From Acidobacteriota bacterium (GTDB lineage Bacteria > Acidobacteriota > Terriglobia > Acidiferrales > UBA7541): DNA of 64,000 nucleotides. A model generated the notes under the pieces. The model worked only from the letters and a program-made list of their open reading frames with translations, was not told the origin of the DNA and did not search any database. The DNA is taken from the NCBI GenBank assembly GCA_013289585.1, contig JABCZR010000020.1:1-64000 (forward strand), in the 5' to 3' direction. Below, one piece after another: positions 32,770 through 41,815 of the stretch (positions are counted from its first letter, which is position 1; each line of letters starts with the position of its first letter). The translations under genes were made by a program, and so were the position numbers.

Positions 32770-34113
32770 GTGCAGAATGGCGCTTCGTCGCAACGCTCTC
32801 CGACAACCGGATTGCTCCTAGGGCTGGTGATCACACTGGCAGCGGTGGTGACCTATGCGTCCTACATCACCGTGCAGCTTGCCGGACTGCGTAAGCTCCA
32901 AAGCGAGATGGTGGACCGCAATCGCAGAGATTCACTTCAGTTGCTGCGCATCCAGAACGATTTGAATTCCGTCGCGCTGGCAATGCGCGACATGCTGGAC
33001 ACCACCGAGCCCTATCCGCTGACGGCCTGGACTGCTCAATTCGAACGCATTCACCAGGATCTCGATGCCGGGCTAAGACTCGAGGAAAGCCTCGCTGCGG
33101 TGAACCGTACTCCGGAACAGCGGCAGTATCTCAGTCAATCAGCGGCGCAGTTCTGGGACGCGGTAAACCGCATGTTTGCTTTGGCACAAAACGGCAAAGA
33201 GGCGGAGGCCCGTGAACAGATTCGCCTGACGTTGCAAGCGCGGCAACAAGCGCTCAGCACCGCCGTTTCGCGCCTTCTTGTAGAGAACAATGAAGGGGAA
33301 GAGCAAGCCGCTGTTCGGATCGCGCAGATTTACGAGGGCGTTCAGCGCCAGCTGTATATTTTTCTTGTGGCGACGCTTATCGCCATCGTTTTGACGAGCC
33401 TCTACCTGATTCGCAGCAACAGGCAGATTTTTGCGCGGTTGGCGGAGCTTTCCGAGCAACGCAGCGAACTGGCGCAGAAACTGATTGCCACGCAGGAGTC
33501 GACCTTGCGGCACATCTCCCGCGAACTCCACGACGAGTTTGGTCAAGTGTTGACAGCGATCGGATCGATGCTGCGCCGCGCCGGCAATCACGCACCGGAG
33601 AATTCGCCTCTGCGCCAGGATTTGCTGGAAGTGCAGGAGATCGCGCAATCGACGTTGAACAATATTCGCACGCTATCCCAGGCTTTGCATCCAGTGCTTC
33701 TCGAAGAAGCCGGCCTCGAGAGCACTCTCGACTGGTATATTCCAATGGTTGAACGCCAAGCGGGACTTGCACTGCACTACGAGAAGAACGGACAGCCTTT
33801 TCCGGTGGAAACTGGCGCGGGCGTACACGTCTATCGCATCCTGCAGGAGGCGCTGAACAATGTGAGCCGGCATTCCGGCGCACGCGAGGCCTGGATACGT
33901 CTAAACTTTTGTCCGGATGCATTGGAGCTGGAAGTGGAAGATCACGGAACGGGTTTTGTCGCTGAGAAAATGCAGCGCGGCATCGGGCTGGTGGCCATGC
34001 GCGAACGCGCCGAACTGATTGGCGGCGTGCTGGCAATCGCGCCCAGCTTGCAAGGTGGCACAGTGGTTCGGCTGCACGTGCCCAGGGTAAAGGCGGAAGT
34101 ACATGGGGCATAA
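32770..34113 (+). CDS. NarL-type sensor histidine kinase
   Basis: A 447-residue kinase, GTG start. N-terminal membrane helix (about 13-34), an extracytoplasmic helical sensor of about 150 residues, a second helix (about 196-215), then HisKA_3 with His254 (ISRELHDEFGQVLTAIG) and a HATPase_c domain (EALNNVSRHSGA, EDHGTGF, GIGLVAMRERAELIGG). Its stop overlaps the following response-regulator gene by 11 bases, so they form one pair. The signal is unknown; the sensor domain is all-helical, of the kind seen in chemoreceptors. Confidence 0.93.
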   Translation: MQNGASSQRSPTTGLLLGLVITLAAVVTYASYITVQLAGLRKLQSEMVDRNRRDSLQLLRIQNDLNSVALAMRDMLDTTEPYPLTAWTAQFERIHQDLDAGLRLEESLAAVNRTPEQRQYLSQSAAQFWDAVNRMFALAQNGKEAEAREQIRLTLQARQQALSTAVSRLLVENNEGEEQAAVRIAQIYEGVQRQLYIFLVATLIAIVLTSLYLIRSNRQIFARLAELSEQRSELAQKLIATQESTLRHISRELHDEFGQVLTAIGSMLRRAGNHAPENSPLRQDLLEVQEIAQSTLNNIRTLSQALHPVLLEEAGLESTLDWYIPMVERQAGLALHYEKNGQPFPVETGAGVHVYRILQEALNNVSRHSGAREAWIRLNFCPDALELEVEDHGTGFVAEKMQRGIGLVAMRERAELIGGVLAIAPSLQGGTVVRLHVPRVKAEVHGA

Positions 34114-34732
34114 GATCACCGTCCTGCTGGCCGACGATCACGCGCTCGTGAGGCGCGGATTCCGCCGTATGCTGGAAGACGACCCCGAGATTTCCGTCGT
34201 AGGAGAAGCCAGCACCGGCAAGGAAGCCGTGCGGCTGGCCTGCGAATTGCGCCCAAAAGTAATTGTGATGGATTGTGCGATGCCGGAGCTGAGTGGCATC
34301 GAAGCCACAAGAAAAATCCTGGAATCATTCCCGGAAGCAGAAATCCTCATGCTGAGCATGCACTCCGAGGAGACGCTGGTAGGCCAGGCACTCGACGCGG
34401 GAGCGCGCGGTTACGTTCTGAAGAATGCCATGGATCTCGATCTGGTCAGCGCGGTGAAGAGCGTGGCCGGCGGCATGACGGTTCTTGATCCACAAGTCTC
34501 GCGCCCGGACGCGCTCCGCGGGGAACGCGGCGGAGGATTGACGCCGCGCGAACTGGAAATCCTGCAACACATCGTTGCAGGTAAATCCAACAAGGAAATT
34601 GCCGTGGGCCTCGGCCTAAGCGTGAACACCGTCGCAGTTCACCGCGCGAACATCATGGCGACGCTAGGAATCCACAAAACGGCGGAGCTGGTCGTTTACG
34701 CGATTCGAAACGGTCTGGTTAATCTTCCATGA
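34103..34732 (+). CDS. NarL/FixJ-type response regulator
   Basis: A 209-residue regulator. Receiver domain with acidic pair DD at 11-12, phospho-acceptor Asp57 (VIVMDCAMPEL) and the conserved Lys (GYVLKNA); LuxR-type helix-turn-helix at about 145-205 (LTPRELEILQHIVAGKSNKEIA). It is the partner of the overlapping kinase. The next gene, a CRTAC1 protein, starts within its stop (ATGA), which makes the CRTAC1 gene part of the same operon and perhaps of its regulon. Confidence 0.95.
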   Translation: MGHKITVLLADDHALVRRGFRRMLEDDPEISVVGEASTGKEAVRLACELRPKVIVMDCAMPELSGIEATRKILESFPEAEILMLSMHSEETLVGQALDAGARGYVLKNAMDLDLVSAVKSVAGGMTVLDPQVSRPDALRGERGGGLTPRELEILQHIVAGKSNKEIAVGLGLSVNTVAVHRANIMATLGIHKTAELVVYAIRNGLVNLP

Positions 34733-36426
34733 TCCGCCGGGACTTTCTGCTGGGGGCCTGCGCGGCAGGATTCGCGGCAGGACTGCCTTCTTCAAGCCTT
34801 CAAAAAGAGTCGAGCGCGGGGCTCACCTTCGGGTTTTCGGATGTGACTGCAGCGGCCGGCATTCAGTTTCGTCATAACAACGGTGGGTATGGCGGTAAGT
34901 TTCTCCCCGAGACGCTCGGATCGGGATGCGCGTTTCTTGATTACGACAGCGATGGCTGGCAGGACATCCTGCTCATCAACGGAATGGATTGGGCCGGCCA
35001 CAAACGTCAGCGATCCACCTTGAAGCTCTATCGCAATAATCGCAACGGAACGTTCACGGACGTCACGCGAAGCGCCGGGCTGGATATCGAAATGTATGGC
35101 ATGGGCGTGGCCGTCGGCGACTTTAACAACGATGGCTTCGAGGATATTTTTGTTTCGTGCGTTGGGCAGAGCCGGCTATTCCGCAATAGCGGCAAAGGAA
35201 CTTTTGTTGACGTTACGCGATCGAGCGGACTTTTCGGACATCAGGGCTTCAGTACATCCGCGCTTTGGCTTGACTATGACCGGGATGGCTTGCTCGACCT
35301 CTTCGTCTGCAACTACGTGCGTTGGTCCCCGGAGCACGATGTCTTCTGCAGCCTGGACGGCACGCACAAATCCTACTGCACGCCCGAAGCGTATCGCGGC
35401 GATACTTGCTGGCTGTTCCACAATCGCGGCGACGGAACGTTTGAAGACGTGACGGCAGCTAGCGGAATTTTCGATACCAGCTCAAAGTCACTTGGTGTTG
35501 CCATGTTTGATTACGATCAGGACGGCTGGCCGGATTTGCTGGTAGCCAACGATACGCAGCCGAACAAGCTGTATCGCAATCTGAAGAACGGCAAGTTCAA
35601 GGATGTCGCAGTGGAAGCCGGGCTGGCGTTCAGCACCGAAGGAAAAGCGCGTGCTGGCATGGGCGTGGACATCGGGGACTTCGAAAACTCCGGTAAGCTT
35701 GGCGTAGCGATCACTAACTTCGACAACGAAATGACCGGGCTGTATCGCGTGAGCGCCCCCGGAGTTTTCGACGATATCTCCATGCTCTCCGGCATTGGCT
35801 CGGCATCCCGAAACACTCTGGGCTTCGGCTGCATGTTCCTGGATGTGGACCTCGACGGCTTGCTGGACCTCACCGTTGCCAACGGCCATATTGATGAAAC
35901 CGTCCGAAATATTCGCGGGAATACAGGATACGCTCAGTCTCCGCAACTTTTCCTGAATCGTGGCGGCGGGAAATTTCGCGACGTGGCTGGAGAAGTCGGC
36001 GGCGGCTTCGCGGCGCCGAAAGTGGGGCGAGGACTGGCTTACGGAGATTTCGATCGCGACGGCGACCTCGACGTGCTGATGACTACGAACAACGGGCCCG
36101 CGTATTTATACCGGAACGACCAAATATCTCATCCACGGAGCATCCGGTTTCAGTTGCAAGGAGTGAAGTCCAATCGGGACGCTATCGGTGCGGTGGTTCG
36201 CATTTTTTATGACGGACAAAGCCAGATCAGGATGGTCCGCGGCGGTTCCAGCTATCTTTCGCAATCGGAGTTGCCGTTGACCTTTGGCTTAGGGCCCCGC
36301 GACAAGATCGATCGCGTGGTGATCGACTGGCCCAGCGGCCGCAACGAAGAATTCAAGGATCTCCGCGCCGACCGCTCATACAAATGCCTGGAAACAAAAG
36401 GGATAGAGGCGCAGCAAGGCTTCTAG
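34729..36426 (+). CDS. CRTAC1/ASPIC-UnbV repeat protein, Tat-type signal
   Basis: A 565-residue exported protein. MIRRDFLLGACAAGFAAGL is a twin-arginine-like signal (RRDFLLG). The mature part is a beta-propeller of FG-GAP/VCBS repeats with several Ca-binding-like loops (DYDSDGWQDIL, DFNNDGFEDIF, DYDQDGWPDLL, DVDLDGLLDLT, DFDRDGDLDVL), ending in the ASPIC/UnbV domain (KSNRDAIGAVVRIFY then SSYLSQSELPLTFGLG). Closely resembles the second CRTAC1 gene at 40100. Family members are secreted or surface scaffold proteins of unknown role. Placed in one operon with the two-component pair. Confidence 0.93.
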   Translation: MIRRDFLLGACAAGFAAGLPSSSLQKESSAGLTFGFSDVTAAAGIQFRHNNGGYGGKFLPETLGSGCAFLDYDSDGWQDILLINGMDWAGHKRQRSTLKLYRNNRNGTFTDVTRSAGLDIEMYGMGVAVGDFNNDGFEDIFVSCVGQSRLFRNSGKGTFVDVTRSSGLFGHQGFSTSALWLDYDRDGLLDLFVCNYVRWSPEHDVFCSLDGTHKSYCTPEAYRGDTCWLFHNRGDGTFEDVTAASGIFDTSSKSLGVAMFDYDQDGWPDLLVANDTQPNKLYRNLKNGKFKDVAVEAGLAFSTEGKARAGMGVDIGDFENSGKLGVAITNFDNEMTGLYRVSAPGVFDDISMLSGIGSASRNTLGFGCMFLDVDLDGLLDLTVANGHIDETVRNIRGNTGYAQSPQLFLNRGGGKFRDVAGEVGGGFAAPKVGRGLAYGDFDRDGDLDVLMTTNNGPAYLYRNDQISHPRSIRFQLQGVKSNRDAIGAVVRIFYDGQSQIRMVRGGSSYLSQSELPLTFGLGPRDKIDRVVIDWPSGRNEEFKDLRADRSYKCLETKGIEAQQGF

Positions 36427-36536
36427 TGTTTTTCCATTATTGCCAGCCCTGGCACTGCCACATATAAATGACGCAACCAGTAACATCGCTTCTAGATGAG
36501 CCGGGCAGGCTTATTTCGAGGCACCCAAACTGAATT

Positions 36537-36567
36537 GCGGCCGGATGTTACTCAAACATCCGGCCGC
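36537..36567 (+). terminator. Strong hairpin between CRTAC1 and cytochrome genes
   Basis: A perfect 12-bp stem (GCGGCCGGATGT / ACATCCGGCCGC) with a 7-base loop. It lies 110 bases after the CRTAC1 stop. It lacks a long T run (only TGTTGT follows). It lies upstream of the preferred cytochrome start at 36598, so a start upstream of it at 36496 is unlikely. Confidence 0.6.
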
Positions 36568-36597
36568 TGTTGTAATGTACGGTGGTTGCGAGCCGGG

Positions 36598-39483
36598 GTG
36601 GAAATAGTGGCGAGGTCGTCGAGAGAGCGTTGGTTATTGGGGAGCCTGATTGCGCTGATCGTCAGTGCAGCGTATTTGTACGCGTACCCTTCCGCGACAA
36701 TTTTCTTTGGCATCGTGGTGTTGTTTCACGTTGCCACAGGAATCGTTTTTGCCCTCCTGCTGGCTTTCACACTGTTTCGATTGCTTCGTGACGGAACGCT
36801 GCTGGAACGCTTTGGCTGGGTCCTGCTCGCGGCAGGAGCGGTTCTCGGCATCCTGCTAATCAAGATTGGGACTCCCAATCACTTGAAGTCGTGGCTCTAC
36901 GCTCACATCGCGCTGTGCCTGTTCGGCGCGGTGTGTTTGTTCGCGTCTCGGCTGGCATCGCACGGCTGGCTGGGTAATAGCGTTGCGCGGCGCGGTTTGG
37001 GATTCGTCGCGCTGCTGCTCCTGACAGCAGGAATCGCCGCTGGTGGTTGGTGGACTCGCGAGATCGCCTGGAAAAATGCGAATCGCATTTCGAATCCGCA
37101 TATGCCGCCGGAAACCATGGACAGCGAAGGTGACGGGCCGCAAGGGAAATTCTTCCCCAGTTCCGCGCAGACCAGACATGGCGGCAACATTCCCTCGCAA
37201 TACTTCATGAAATCCGAAGCTTGCCAGCGCTGCCACGCCGACATCTACAAGCAGTGGAACAGCTCGATGCATCATTTCTCGTCCTTCAACAACCAGTGGT
37301 ACCGCAAGAGCATCGAGTACATGCAGGACGTTGCGGGCGTGCAGTCTTCGAAATGGTGCGCGGGTTGCCATGATCCCGCGCTGCTCTACAGCGGAATGTT
37401 CGATACCCCGATTAAACAGATCGTGGACCGCCCCGAGGCGCGCGCCGGGCTCGGCTGCCTGATGTGTCACAGCATCGTGCAAGTGAAAAGCACGATGGGC
37501 CAGGGCGACTTTTTTCTGGAGTACCCGAAGCTGCATGAACTTGCCGCGAGTGACAATCCCGTTGTCCGATCGCTCCACGATTTCCTGGTTCGCTTGAATC
37601 CGGAGCCACACCGCCGCACGTTCTTGAAACCCTTCATGCGCGCGGACACGGCAGAGTTCTGCTCTTCCTGCCACAAAGTTCATCTGGATGTCCCCGTAAA
37701 TCACTACCGCTGGATCCGCGGCTTCAATGAATATGACAACTGGCAGGCCAGCGGCGTTTCTGGCCAGGGTGCGCGTGCATTCTACTATCCGAAAGCGCCC
37801 ATGAACTGCGCCGATTGCCATATGCCGCAAGTGCCCTCAGGCGATGACGGCAACATCAACGGACTCGTTCACTCGCACCGCTTCCCCGGCGCCAACACGG
37901 CTGTCCCCACGGCGAATGAAGACCAGGCGCAATTCGAGTTTGCAAAGAAGTTTCTGCAGGACAAACAACTGACAGTGGATATTTTCGCTATTTCACCCGC
38001 CGGAAATGAATCAAACCCGGCTGCGGGGAGAGAAATCGGAAAGCCGGAACTTTCGACCACTTTCGCTGTAGGCGAAGAATCGGATATTTCGCTGCCGAAA
38101 GGGCCGGCCGGGGAGCTGCGTCCGATTACCGCTCCCATCGATCGAACCGATGCAGCTGTGCGCCGGGGCGATGATGCTCGCGTGGACGTTGTAGTCCGCA
38201 CACGGAAGGTGGGGCACTTTTTCCCCGGCGGCACCGTTGATGCTTTCGACGTGTGGCTCGAGCTGCAAGCCACGGATGAGAAAGGCCAGATCATTTTCTG
38301 GAGCGGCAAAGTCGAAGACGATGGCAGAGGCCCCGTCGAACCAGGCGCTCACTTCTATCGTTCGCTTCAGATCGATGGGCACGGCAATCCTATTAACAAG
38401 CGCAACGCCTGGGCCACTCGCTCCGTTGTTTACGTTCACCTGATTCCTCCGGGCGCTGCGGACACCGCGCACTTTCGCCTGCACGTTCCGGAAAACGTGG
38501 GCGAGAAGATCACACTGCATGCCAAGTTGAACTATCGAAAGTTCGGCTGGTTCAATACGCACTTTTCATTCGCGGGCATAGAGGACCAATCGCGGCCGCA
38601 AGGCGGCACTACTCCGGACTATGACGATCGCAAATGGGAGTTCACGGGCGACACGTCGAAAGTGTCCGGCAATCTCAAAGCGATTCCTGATCTTCCTATC
38701 ATCACCATTGCCGAGGATACCAAGACGTTGCGTGTCCTCGCGCGAACCGCTCCACCGCCCCAACCGAAGACCACCAGCACAAAAGAGGATTGGACTCGAT
38801 GGAATGACTATGGGATTGGCCTTTTCTTGCAGGGTGATCTGAAGGCCGCTGGCGCCGCGTTCGAGAAAATCACCGAAGCCGATTCGAAGAATCCCGACGG
38901 CTGGACCAACATCGGCCGCGTCCTGGTGCAGGAGGGCGACACTGCCGGAGCGCGAAAGGTGCTCGAGAAATCGCTGGCGATTGATCCACGTCTGGCGCGA
39001 ACAAACTTCTTTTACGCGCGCGCTCTCAAGGAAGACGGCGACTACGACGGCGCCATCACTCACCTCAAGATCGTCCTCGAACAATTTCCCCGCGATCGCG
39101 TCGTGCACAACGAGCTGGGCCGCGTTCTTTTTCTTCAGAAACGCTACGCCGACGCGGTGAAAGAGTTCGAGCAAACTCTCTCCATCGATCCCGAAGACCT
39201 GCAAGCGCATTACAACCTGATGCTCTGTTACAACGGCCTTGGCGACGATGCCAAAGCAAACGAACACAAGACGCGCTACATGCGCTTCAAGGCTGACGAA
39301 TCGGCTCAGTCCATTACCGGGCCGTACCGGCAGACGCACCCCGACGACAATAATGAGCGCCAGCCAATTCATGAACATGTCAGTGTTGCGATGGGCGCCG
39401 CCCAACCAAAGAAGGCCGCGGCCGGAAAGCCTGCATCGAAAACTGCGGCTGCCGAAAGCGTGAAGCCCGGCGCGGGACAATAG
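36598..39483 (+). CDS. Membrane-anchored five-haem cytochrome c with TPR domain
   Basis: A 961-residue protein using GTG 36598 (36607 is also possible); the frame opens at 36496, but that stretch contains a strong hairpin. The N-terminal 180 residues hold about four to five membrane helices. Then come five CxxCH haem sites at residues 209 (CQRCH), 254 (CAGCH), 287 (CLMCH), 355 (CSSCH) and 404 (CADCH) with scattered distal His, as in multihaem cytochromes c of the NrfA/HAO-like type. A beta-rich central part follows, and TPR repeats (about 720-900: EKITEADSKNPDGWTNIGRV, YNLMLCYNGLG). It is probably an electron carrier on the outer face of the membrane. Partner unknown. Confidence 0.9.
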   Translation: MEIVARSSRERWLLGSLIALIVSAAYLYAYPSATIFFGIVVLFHVATGIVFALLLAFTLFRLLRDGTLLERFGWVLLAAGAVLGILLIKIGTPNHLKSWLYAHIALCLFGAVCLFASRLASHGWLGNSVARRGLGFVALLLLTAGIAAGGWWTREIAWKNANRISNPHMPPETMDSEGDGPQGKFFPSSAQTRHGGNIPSQYFMKSEACQRCHADIYKQWNSSMHHFSSFNNQWYRKSIEYMQDVAGVQSSKWCAGCHDPALLYSGMFDTPIKQIVDRPEARAGLGCLMCHSIVQVKSTMGQGDFFLEYPKLHELAASDNPVVRSLHDFLVRLNPEPHRRTFLKPFMRADTAEFCSSCHKVHLDVPVNHYRWIRGFNEYDNWQASGVSGQGARAFYYPKAPMNCADCHMPQVPSGDDGNINGLVHSHRFPGANTAVPTANEDQAQFEFAKKFLQDKQLTVDIFAISPAGNESNPAAGREIGKPELSTTFAVGEESDISLPKGPAGELRPITAPIDRTDAAVRRGDDARVDVVVRTRKVGHFFPGGTVDAFDVWLELQATDEKGQIIFWSGKVEDDGRGPVEPGAHFYRSLQIDGHGNPINKRNAWATRSVVYVHLIPPGAADTAHFRLHVPENVGEKITLHAKLNYRKFGWFNTHFSFAGIEDQSRPQGGTTPDYDDRKWEFTGDTSKVSGNLKAIPDLPIITIAEDTKTLRVLARTAPPPQPKTTSTKEDWTRWNDYGIGLFLQGDLKAAGAAFEKITEADSKNPDGWTNIGRVLVQEGDTAGARKVLEKSLAIDPRLARTNFFYARALKEDGDYDGAITHLKIVLEQFPRDRVVHNELGRVLFLQKRYADAVKEFEQTLSIDPEDLQAHYNLMLCYNGLGDDAKANEHKTRYMRFKADESAQSITGPYRQTHPDDNNERQPIHEHVSVAMGAAQPKKAAAGKPASKTAAAESVKPGAGQ

Positions 39484-39521: not shown

Positions 39522-40088
39522 ATGACCTGGATCAAAACGATTCGAATGGATGAAGACGAGCGCGTGAAGAAAGCGATCGAGGACGAGCGAAAGCTCTATC
39601 CCGTGGAATACCGCACGCCAGCCCCGGCTGTCGATCGCGGCGAAGCGGAAAGCATCACCGCGTCGCATTCGCTGATTCCCGATGCTCTGTATCACTCGTT
39701 TTCGGCGTTTGGCACGATGCTGTCGCCCGACCTTCCGCTGAAGCGCCACCAGCACGAGATGATCGCCACCGTCGTGTCCGTCACGAACCGGTGCCACTAT
39801 TGAATTGAATCTCACGCAGAGTTTCTGCGTAGGGTCTTGCTGGACGAGAACATGGTCAACCTGCTCCGTAAGGACTATCGGACCGCGCCGATAAGCGAAC
39901 AGGACCGCGTGATGCTGGACTACGTGGTCAAGCTGACGAAGGATGCGACGTTGTGTCGCCCGGAGGATCACGCGAGATTGCGCGCGGTGGGCTTCGACGA
40001 CAAGGGGATTCTGCAAATTACTCTAATCGCCGCGTGGTTCAACTACATTAATAAAGTCGCCGACGCTCTCGGTGTGGGCCGCGATTGA
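39522..40088 (+). CDS. AhpD-like peroxidase-related selenoprotein (in-frame TGA as Sec94)
   Basis: The frame from ATG 39522 (GAGGCGAG before it) is interrupted by a TGA at 39801-39803 and then continues in the same frame, with no second start needed, to 40088, giving 188 residues. Around the TGA the sequence is [16 protein letters not shown]-(TGA)-I-E-S-H. That is the AhpD motif E-x11-C-x2-C-x3-H with the second, reactive cysteine replaced by TGA, so selenocysteine is the simple reading. A SECIS-like hairpin lies directly behind (39814-39830). Both halves match carboxymuconolactone decarboxylase/AhpD proteins in order. It is expected to act as a thiol/selenol peroxidase or disulfide reductase. 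Stops 11 bases before the second CRTAC1 gene. Confidence 0.85.
39814..39830 (+). promoter_or_regulatory. Bacterial SECIS-like hairpin
   Basis: ACGCAG-AGTTT-CTGCGT, a perfect 6-bp stem with a five-base loop whose second base is G. Ten bases separate the TGA from the stem and 16 bases separate it from the loop, inside the range known for bacterial SECIS elements, where the G in the loop contacts SelB. The hairpin is inside the coding sequence, as in all bacterial selenoprotein mRNAs. Confidence 0.7.
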
Positions 40089-40099
40089 GCTATGGGGGA

Positions 40100-41815
40100 A
40101 TGGTGAAACGTCCGTTTGCAACCGTTGCCGTTTTTGTTCTCGCCGTATTTCTGATTGCTCAGACACAGACTAAAGCCGCTCCCGATACGTCGTCCATTCA
40201 GTTCCACGACGTTACGCAACCAGCCGGTCTTCATTTCGTCCACAATAATGGCGCGTTTGGGAAAAAGTTCTTGCCCGAAACCATGGGCCCCGGCGTTGCT
40301 TTCATTGATTACGACAACGATGGCTGGCCCGACATTTTTCTCGTGAATGGGATGGATTGGCCGGGGCATGTTCAAAAGCATTCCACGCCTAAGCTGTACC
40401 ATAACAATCATGACGGCACGTTCACCGATGTGACGCATAAAGCCGGTCTCGACATCGAGATGTTCGGAATGGGTGTGGCCGTGGGCGATTACGACAACGA
40501 CGGCTACGACGACCTCTTCGTCACCGCGTATGGGCAGAGCCATCTCTTCCACAACAACGGCAACGGCACCTTTACGGACGTCACGCAAAAAGCGGGACTG
40601 AGCGGGCCCAAGGAATTCAGCACCAGCGCGGCATGGGTAGACTACGACAAGGACGGCCGTCTCGACCTCGTCGTCGGAAATTATGTGCAATGGACACCAG
40701 AGACGGATCTTTACTGCACGCTGGATGGAAAGAGCAAGTCGTACTGTACGCCGGAGTCCTATAAAGGCACATCCGTGCGGCTCTGGCACAATCGCGGCGA
40801 CGGAACATTTGAAGACGCCACGCAAAAAGCGGGCCTCGGCGAGCCCACCTCGAAAACGCTCGGCGTCGCAGTTCTCGATTACGACAATGATGGCTGGCCA
40901 GACCTGTTATTTTCGAACGACACTCAGCCCAACAAACTGTATCGCAACAACGGCAACGGAACTTTCACGGAGAAGGCTGTCGTTGCCGGCGTTGCTTTCA
41001 GCGAAGACGGCGTGGCCCGCGCGGGCATGGGCGTGGATGCATCGGACTACGACCATTCCGGCTATCCCAGTCTCCTCATCACCAATTTTTCAAATCAGAT
41101 GCTTTCGCTTTATCACAACGAAGGAAGAGGGCTGTTTGTGGACGAAGCTCCACGATCGGAGATCGGCCGCGCTTCGCTCCTCACGCTGGGGTTCGGCTGC
41201 TTCTTCTTTGACTACGACCTCGACGGTTGGGCCGATGTCCTGGTCGCCAACGGCCACATCGATGCGGACATTCAACGCGTGCAAGCGAACGTGAAGTATG
41301 CCATGCCGCCCCACGTGTTCCGCAACGACGGCAAAGGCAAATTTCAAGAAGTCACCAAGTCTCTGGGGCAAGCTTTCGATTCTCCACGTGTGGGGCGCGG
41401 CGCAGCCTACGCGGACTTCAACAACGACGGCCGCCTGGACCTGCTGCTCTCCACCAACGGGGGCCCGGTCTATTTATTCCGGAATGACGCGCTAGGCGCC
41501 GCTGCTTCCTACCACAGCCTGCGCTTCAAATTGATCGGCGTGAAATCCAATCGCGACGGCATTGGAGCGACGGTCAAGCTTACGTCCGGTGGAGAAACGC
41601 AAACGCAGATGCTTCGCAGCGGTTCCAGCTATCTTTCCGCCAGCGAACTCGTCTTGACTTTCGGGCTCGCGCAGCACGATAAGGCCGATGCCATCGAAAT
41701 TCGCTGGCCCAGCGGCCAGGTAGACCGTCTTTCCAGCGTGCCCGCAGGCCAGACCGTCACCGTGACCGAAGGAAAAGGAATCACTGCCGCCCGCGCGTAC
41801 GGAAAGAAAAACTGA
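40100..41815 (+). CDS. CRTAC1/ASPIC-UnbV repeat protein, second copy
   Basis: A 571-residue exported protein with a Sec-type signal (MVKRPFATVAVFVLAVFLIA). ATG 40100 is preferred: GGGGGA lies just before it, and the TTG at 40085 lies in the selenoprotein stop. Five or more VCBS/FG-GAP loops (DYDNDGWPDIFL, DYDNDGYDDLF, DYDKDGRLDLV, DYDNDGWPDLLF, DFNNDGRLDLLL) and a C-terminal ASPIC/UnbV domain (KSNRDGIGATVKL, SSYLSASELVLTFGL). It is a paralogue of 34729-36426 along its whole length, differing in the signal peptide type. Coupled to the upstream AhpD-like gene. Confidence 0.93.
   Translation: MVKRPFATVAVFVLAVFLIAQTQTKAAPDTSSIQFHDVTQPAGLHFVHNNGAFGKKFLPETMGPGVAFIDYDNDGWPDIFLVNGMDWPGHVQKHSTPKLYHNNHDGTFTDVTHKAGLDIEMFGMGVAVGDYDNDGYDDLFVTAYGQSHLFHNNGNGTFTDVTQKAGLSGPKEFSTSAAWVDYDKDGRLDLVVGNYVQWTPETDLYCTLDGKSKSYCTPESYKGTSVRLWHNRGDGTFEDATQKAGLGEPTSKTLGVAVLDYDNDGWPDLLFSNDTQPNKLYRNNGNGTFTEKAVVAGVAFSEDGVARAGMGVDASDYDHSGYPSLLITNFSNQMLSLYHNEGRGLFVDEAPRSEIGRASLLTLGFGCFFFDYDLDGWADVLVANGHIDADIQRVQANVKYAMPPHVFRNDGKGKFQEVTKSLGQAFDSPRVGRGAAYADFNNDGRLDLLLSTNGGPVYLFRNDALGAAASYHSLRFKLIGVKSNRDGIGATVKLTSGGETQTQMLRSGSSYLSASELVLTFGLAQHDKADAIEIRWPSGQVDRLSSVPAGQTVTVTEGKGITAARAYGKKN

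Follow-up and report, generated by a model that had tools for sequence, protein, structure and literature searches.

A reading frame that ends at an internal TGA and resumes directly behind it may be a decaying gene, a sequencing artifact, or the coding sequence of a selenoprotein in which TGA is read as selenocysteine (Sec). This question is raised by an AhpD-like gene on contig JABCZR010000020.1 of assembly GCA_013289585.1, which derives from an Acidobacteriota bacterium. We analyzed the first 64,000 nucleotides of this contig, hereafter the window. The TGA lies at the position of a redox-active residue and is followed by a hairpin, which led the initial annotation to propose a selenoprotein.

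One reading frame and one internal TGA

The frame can be read directly from the sequence, opening with ATG at 39522, meeting an in-frame TGA at 39801-39803 and closing with a terminal TGA at 40086-40088; there are no other stops between 39522 and 40088. The read-through protein has 188 residues and carries the motif E79-x11-C91-x2-U94-x3-H98, in which the TGA occupies the second Cys of the AhpD signature E-x11-C-x2-C-x3-H, as is also seen when Cys homologues are aligned. It matches the Pfam CMD domain (PF02627) at 32.9 bits (cut-off 23) and passes the cut-off of TIGR01926, "peroxidase-related enzyme," at 104.7 against 81.8 bits, the scored sequence including an additional C translated from the terminal stop. 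The two halves scored separately reach 19.5 and 64.6 bits, both below the TIGR01926 cut-off, and for this reason it is plausible that databases annotate the region as fragments. The proposal that two half-frames form one AhpD-like gene, split solely by a TGA at the second Cys of the signature, is thus upheld. The features of the locus are collected in Table 1.

Table 1. Features at and around the AhpD-like gene, in window positions.
Feature	Position	Strand	Basis or remark
Histidine kinase and response-regulator-like pair, head of the cluster	32770..34732	+	Kinase: Pfam HisKA_3 and HATPase_c; regulator read from sequence
FG-GAP/ASPIC-UnbV protein, upstream of the cytochrome gene	34729..36426	+	Domain scan
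Multiheme c-type cytochrome with TPR repeats	36496..39483	+	Pfam Cytochrome_C554 and TPR matches
Predicted AhpD-like selenoprotein gene	39522..40088	+	188 codons plus stop, TGA read through; PF02627 and TIGR01926 matches
Active-site stretch, codons 79-98 (E79, C91, Y93, U94, H98)	39756..39815	+	Invariance in close homologues; alignment
Putative selenocysteine 94 codon TGA, second position of CxxU	39801..39803	+	TGA in 73/73 distinct close homologues
SECIS-like hairpin, in coding sequence	39814..39830	+	7 pairs, loop GTT (or 6 pairs, loop AGTTT)
CRTAC1-like FG-GAP/ASPIC-UnbV protein, downstream	40085..41815	+	Domain scan; listed start TTG 40085, in-frame ATG 40100

Conservation of the TGA, the hairpin and the Sec machinery

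We searched 399 genomes from the window's class with the read-through protein, taking matches at E<=1e-50 as close homologues. Such a homologue is present in 57 of them, the source genome included, and the Sec-site codon is TGA in 57/57. A scan of genome_contigs added 35 further loci, partly the same genes. At an identity of at least 53%, we obtained a first set of 67 distinct close genes and six new ones, all with TGA at the homologous codon (67/67, and 73/73 in total). The 67 include three pairs of near-copies (>95% in the compared stretch) and leave out L092, an Abditibacteriales-titled relative whose Sec codon (L092 1087) is masked (N) in the collection. E79, C91, Y93, U94, and H98 are each kept in 67/67. 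By record title or taxonomy the close homologues belong to Acidobacteriota, Gemmatimonadota (L082, L083, L085), and Armatimonadota (L091); many source records are metagenome-assembled genomes and single titles need caution (L069 is titled Betaproteobacteria). No Cys form occurs among the 73 sampled genes. Comparing the other close genes with that of the window, hairpin codons excluded, gives 1678/1130/3130 differences at codon positions 1/2/3 ahead of the TGA and 1248/988/3178 behind it. Since third positions are in excess on either side of the TGA, both halves evolve as coding sequence and are selected as protein. Further lesions were seen in 4/57 class genomes: the gene is frameshifted in G194, G324, and G381 and has an additional in-frame TGA in G385. 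G223 holds a further, weaker gene copy with several stops. These may reflect decay or assembly error. At the loci L163, L162, L164, L165, and L166/L167, the TGA is kept alongside the added frameshifts or stops.

We also assembled a distant set of 47 homologues at 24-44% identity, with 27 TGA, 19 Cys, and one TGG (Trp) codon at the Sec site; the members were hand-picked from the matches of the class-wide search (15 for showing no stop, the rest for TGA), and their Sec to Cys ratio is therefore meaningless. L128, a piece of 101 bases, is left out. In a tree that includes the distant set, the 67-gene branch alone is resolved as a unit with good support (100/99), the order of the Cys groups being unsure because of several long branches. 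The TGG belongs to L113 (G025:C29), a member of a neighboring subfamily that retains 6/7 hairpin pairs and has a sister, L135, with TGA at the site; either a recent loss or an assembly error could explain it. In L115 (G008:C41), which lies inside a Sec group, Ser stands in place of the first Cys and the Sec codon is TGT (Cys), so that SKYC replaces the CxxU pair at both positions. In three genomes of the same order (L132, L136, L139), two TGA-bearing AhpD-like genes adjoin each other on opposite, converging strands.

The hairpin behind the TGA has the 6-bp stem first described for it (ACGCAG-AGTTT-CTGCGT), with a loop that begins 16 nt after the TGA, and counting the closing A-T pair gives 7 bp (ACGCAGA-GTT-TCTGCGT). 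It fits the bacterial SECIS-like hairpin as characterized in the available sections of PMC1088965, which lies just after the UGA and has a small apical loop with a G. The single sequence by itself gives modest evidence for it: out of 200 dinucleotide shuffles covering a 60-nt stretch, 23 are as stable (z -1.20), and when the gene is recoded with the protein fixed and the codon usage of the window, all 7 pairs survive in 280 of 20000 versions, and 72 of 2000 fold equally well. Codons 98-103 of the 67 close genes hardly vary (CAC in 66/67, GCA, GAG, and TTT in all 67, CTG in 66, and CGT in 63), and their normalized codon entropy is 0 to 0.13, whereas 80 other conserved positions in this gene average 0.76, with a minimum of 0.33. 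This freeze reflects a constraint on the RNA, not on the protein. All seven pairs are kept in 63 close genes and six of seven in the remaining four. They are likewise complete in 19/27 distant TGA homologues, and at least 12 of the 27 have a swapped pair; the C-G pair of the window is G-C in 13 of the 27 and C-G in nine. In the register of the window, eight of the 27 form just 3 to 5 pairs. The hairpin is absent from the 19 Cys homologues (maximum 4/7 pairs), and overall 99% of the pairs are formed in close, 86% in distant TGA, and 34% in Cys homologues.

The source genome (4.73 Mb, 32 contigs, 97% complete) encodes the full Sec machinery that the proposal called for, with selA at 572.4 bits (cut-off 267.9), selB at 363.1 (242.25), selD at 353.3 (125), and a tRNA-Sec at 65.6 bits (gathering 47), which ARAGORN also calls as tRNA-SeC with anticodon tca. 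The same genome contains a second gene with an in-frame TGA (L154 1501-2268; G000:C26:28076-28843), which reads RVUHGPTV and scores 177.1 bits against a formate dehydrogenase alpha model, over part of the model and below its cut-off. Its downstream hairpin, GGTCTCA-AGTT-TGGGACC, has AGTTT at the apex, as does that of the AhpD-like gene, and the product is probably a second, formate dehydrogenase-like selenoprotein. Across the class, selA is found in 291/399 genomes at E<=1e-30, in 56/57 of those with a close homologue vs. 235/342 of the others (Fisher 8e-8, relatedness ignored). The sole gene-bearing genome without a selA match, G327, is 85% complete and in 800 contigs. Members of the window's genus such as G005, G022, and G214 have selA and no close homologue, so the AhpD-like gene cannot by itself explain why the pathway is retained.

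How should the TGA be read in the light of these observations? An in-frame stop does divide the frame, and some relatives bear the further lesions noted above, as would suit a pseudogene in which a nonsense mutation struck a formerly Cys-encoding gene and the similarity is a relic. However, the stop is always TGA and always at the same site in the 73 genes, third-position differences are in excess on both sides of it, and the hairpin codons are almost frozen at synonymous sites; moreover, the close relatives are unshifted at the TGA site and share the same TGA and hairpin. We regard a pseudogene as wholly improbable. The initial annotation had also held that a random stop was unlikely to fall on this codon, and the 73/73 recurrence bears it out. 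A sequencing error was rejected on the same recurrence, the coding-type divergence, and the conserved hairpin. The TGA could also be read through without Sec, by a near-cognate tRNA or as Trp or Cys, and the TGG of L113 is in keeping with this. Nonetheless, the genome has a complete Sec machinery, the conserved hairpin accompanies TGA and is absent with Cys codons, the residue replaced is an invariant redox Cys, and TGA serves as the ordinary terminal stop in 40/67 close homologues, leaving such readthrough very unlikely. TGA 39801-39803 is very probably read as selenocysteine because the codon is conserved, the hairpin occurs where the codon is TGA but not where it encodes Cys, and the Sec machinery is complete. 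SelB carrying Sec-tRNA-Sec would recognize the mRNA hairpin just downstream and the ribosome would insert selenocysteine at the TGA; we infer this recognition from the machinery present and from the comparative evidence. Overall, we have high confidence that the gene product is an AhpD-like selenoprotein belonging to the TIGR01926 group, with Sec inserted by way of the hairpin and SelB and with redox chemistry that is likely to be that of AhpD.

Predicted fold, active site and gene neighborhood

An AlphaFold2 model built from 26 sequences has a mean pLDDT of 87.6. Its best PDB matches, all of them AhpD-like and peroxidase-related, are 6k40 at the top (TM 0.81) along with 2prr, 2oyo, 3c1l, and 2pfx; these five are 22-30% identical to the window protein, and a sequence search of the PDB finds the same entries. 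PA0269 (2o4d) likewise counts among the closest proteins by sequence and fold. For the product we predict an all-helical AhpD-like fold with E79, C91, Y93, U94, and H98 on the active-site helix pair, and the model, the 6k40 match, and the invariant residues agree with an AhpD fold bearing a relay of E, C, Y/H, C/U, and H. In the accessible text of PMC3141380, a five-residue proton relay is given for PA0269 (Glu36, Cys48, Tyr50, Cys51, His55) and for M. tuberculosis AhpD (Glu118, Cys130, His132, Cys133, His137). PA0269 and its kin, as far as they are described there, are Cys proteins, whereas the window protein would have Sec for the second Cys. M. tuberculosis AhpD (1gu9, 1knc) shares the active-site motif (Glu118, Cys130, Cys133, His137; PMC3141380) and is a weak fold match (E 0.03, TM 0.47-0.51).

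E79, C91, Y93, U94, and H98 correspond to the relay residues of PA0269 and AhpD. It is established for AhpD which Cys attacks, and by analogy U94 would be the attacking and C91 the resolving residue. Once activated through the Glu/His relay, the selenolate of U94 would reduce a peroxide or disulfide and then bond to C91 as a selenenylsulfide, to be reopened by a cellular reductant. Peroxidase or disulfide-reductase chemistry can thus be proposed from the relatives.

The selenoprotein start codon lies 38 nt behind the cytochrome gene, and the downstream gene, its start listed as TTG 40085, overlaps the stop codon of the selenoprotein gene. The short gap and the overlap suggest one transcript, and in the window's genus the gene is probably co-transcribed with the multiheme cytochrome gene and that of the downstream FG-GAP/ASPIC-UnbV protein, for which we take CRTAC1-like to be the appropriate name. 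We compared 68 neighborhoods with flanks of differing length (0.2 to 6.3 kb per side). A cytochrome just upstream together with a CRTAC1-like protein just downstream occurs in 26/68, comprising 25/29 from the window's own genus plus one from a different genus in its family. At L031, L034, and L047 there is only a CRTAC1-like (FG-GAP/ASPIC-UnbV) gene, directly upstream of the selenoprotein gene, and the other 39/68 (L042 included) have neither neighbor at these distances. Elsewhere the nearest same-strand neighbor is a permease at 10/54 loci by similarity (AA_permease_2 in a Pfam scan of one representative) and an MFS transporter at 4/54 (one representative scanned). With the cytochrome/CRTAC1 flanking nearly confined to one genus, we rejected the operon as a general guide to function. 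Because the neighbors change between lineages, the context suggests redox or envelope stress, not one pathway. Our literature search found no paper on CRTAC1 and cytochrome in Acidobacteria.

The product may also be a selenoprotein with a more specialized role on the AhpD fold, such as reductive dehalogenation or service as a redox partner of the cytochrome/CRTAC1 products. The tight association with the cytochrome/CRTAC1 cluster in the window's genus and with transporter genes elsewhere, the presence of the Bmp8 debrominase among the weaker structure matches, and the Sec-only nature of the branch all lend themselves to this idea. However, the gene context varies between lineages, the complete five-residue relay known from AhpD-like peroxidase-related proteins is present, and Bmp8 ranks below the AhpD-like peroxidase-related structures. 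We therefore hold a specialized enzyme to be somewhat unlikely, and AhpD-like redox chemistry remains our preferred reading.

A probable Sec-only branch of a known selenoprotein family

AhpD-like selenoproteins were taken from the outset to be a known class, and CxxU members are indeed listed under COG2128/TIGR01926 in the available portions of four papers (PMC1088965, PMC2398784, PMC9312934, PMC13188914), including the Sargasso Sea and GOS surveys (PMC1088965, PMC2398784). A 2026 review lists the AhpD-like selenoprotein MCB9421940.1 (PMC13188914), and a GOS table gives 902 Cys vs. 299 Sec forms for AhpD-like 1 (PMC2398784), each in the part of the paper available. Two AhpD-like (COG2128) selenoproteins, and four selenoproteins of three families in Acidobacteria, appear in the accessible part of PMC1794560. 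An acidobacterium with three known selenoprotein genes is tested in PMC12013277, in the available text of which the word "AhpD" is absent. The window protein resembles this family in passing its cut-off and in its CxxU motif, the hairpin after the UGA, and its Cys homologues. It differs from the surveyed members in that its branch is non-marine and, by record title, of Acidobacteriota, Gemmatimonadota, and Armatimonadota; from AhpD-like 1, as tabulated for GOS, in that the branch shows no Cys form among the sampled genes; and from the listed members, going by their descriptions, in the cytochrome/CRTAC1 context found in one genus. NF041238 (AhpD-related, CFYUT) and NF053654 (YciW-related) share the fold and align over the CxxU region, and at 52.1 bits (cut-off 175) and 30.8 bits (cut-off 310), respectively, the window protein is a member of neither. 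AhpD sensu stricto (TIGR00777) was rejected at 18.8 bits against a cut-off of 191.95.

In a literature search on AhpD-like/TIGR01926 selenoproteins and Acidobacteria, no title or abstract opening described the branch, and a description may already be in print. Scanning viral_contigs for an exact pattern derived from the hairpin yielded 0 matches. The protein search of plasmids returned 155 records, none at or above 60% identity; among the 20 listed, 19 are annotated "peroxidase-related enzyme" and one is unannotated. By its sequence, then, the window gene would belong to an already listed selenoprotein family, within which it represents a well-supported new branch. What is new here is that the branch is Sec-only in all sampled genes, that its SECIS hairpin is near-invariant, and that it has a cytochrome/CRTAC1 setting in the window's genus. 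A bolder reading, which we consider distinctly unlikely, would make it a Sec-obligate, specialized branch of the AhpD fold that catalyzes a Cys-incompatible reaction, with a SECIS hairpin near letter-identical in three phyla, and that has been recruited in one acidobacterial genus to serve a multiheme cytochrome/CRTAC1 system as its redox enzyme in the cytoplasm.

An apparently broken gene thus becomes a well-supported selenoenzyme, and the Sec machinery of these Acidobacteria gains a second identified user beside formate dehydrogenase. A branch that lacks a Cys form in 73 sampled genes and has a nearly fixed hairpin offers a clean natural set in which to study why reversion to Cys never happens in some enzymes, and how tightly SelB constrains its RNA target.
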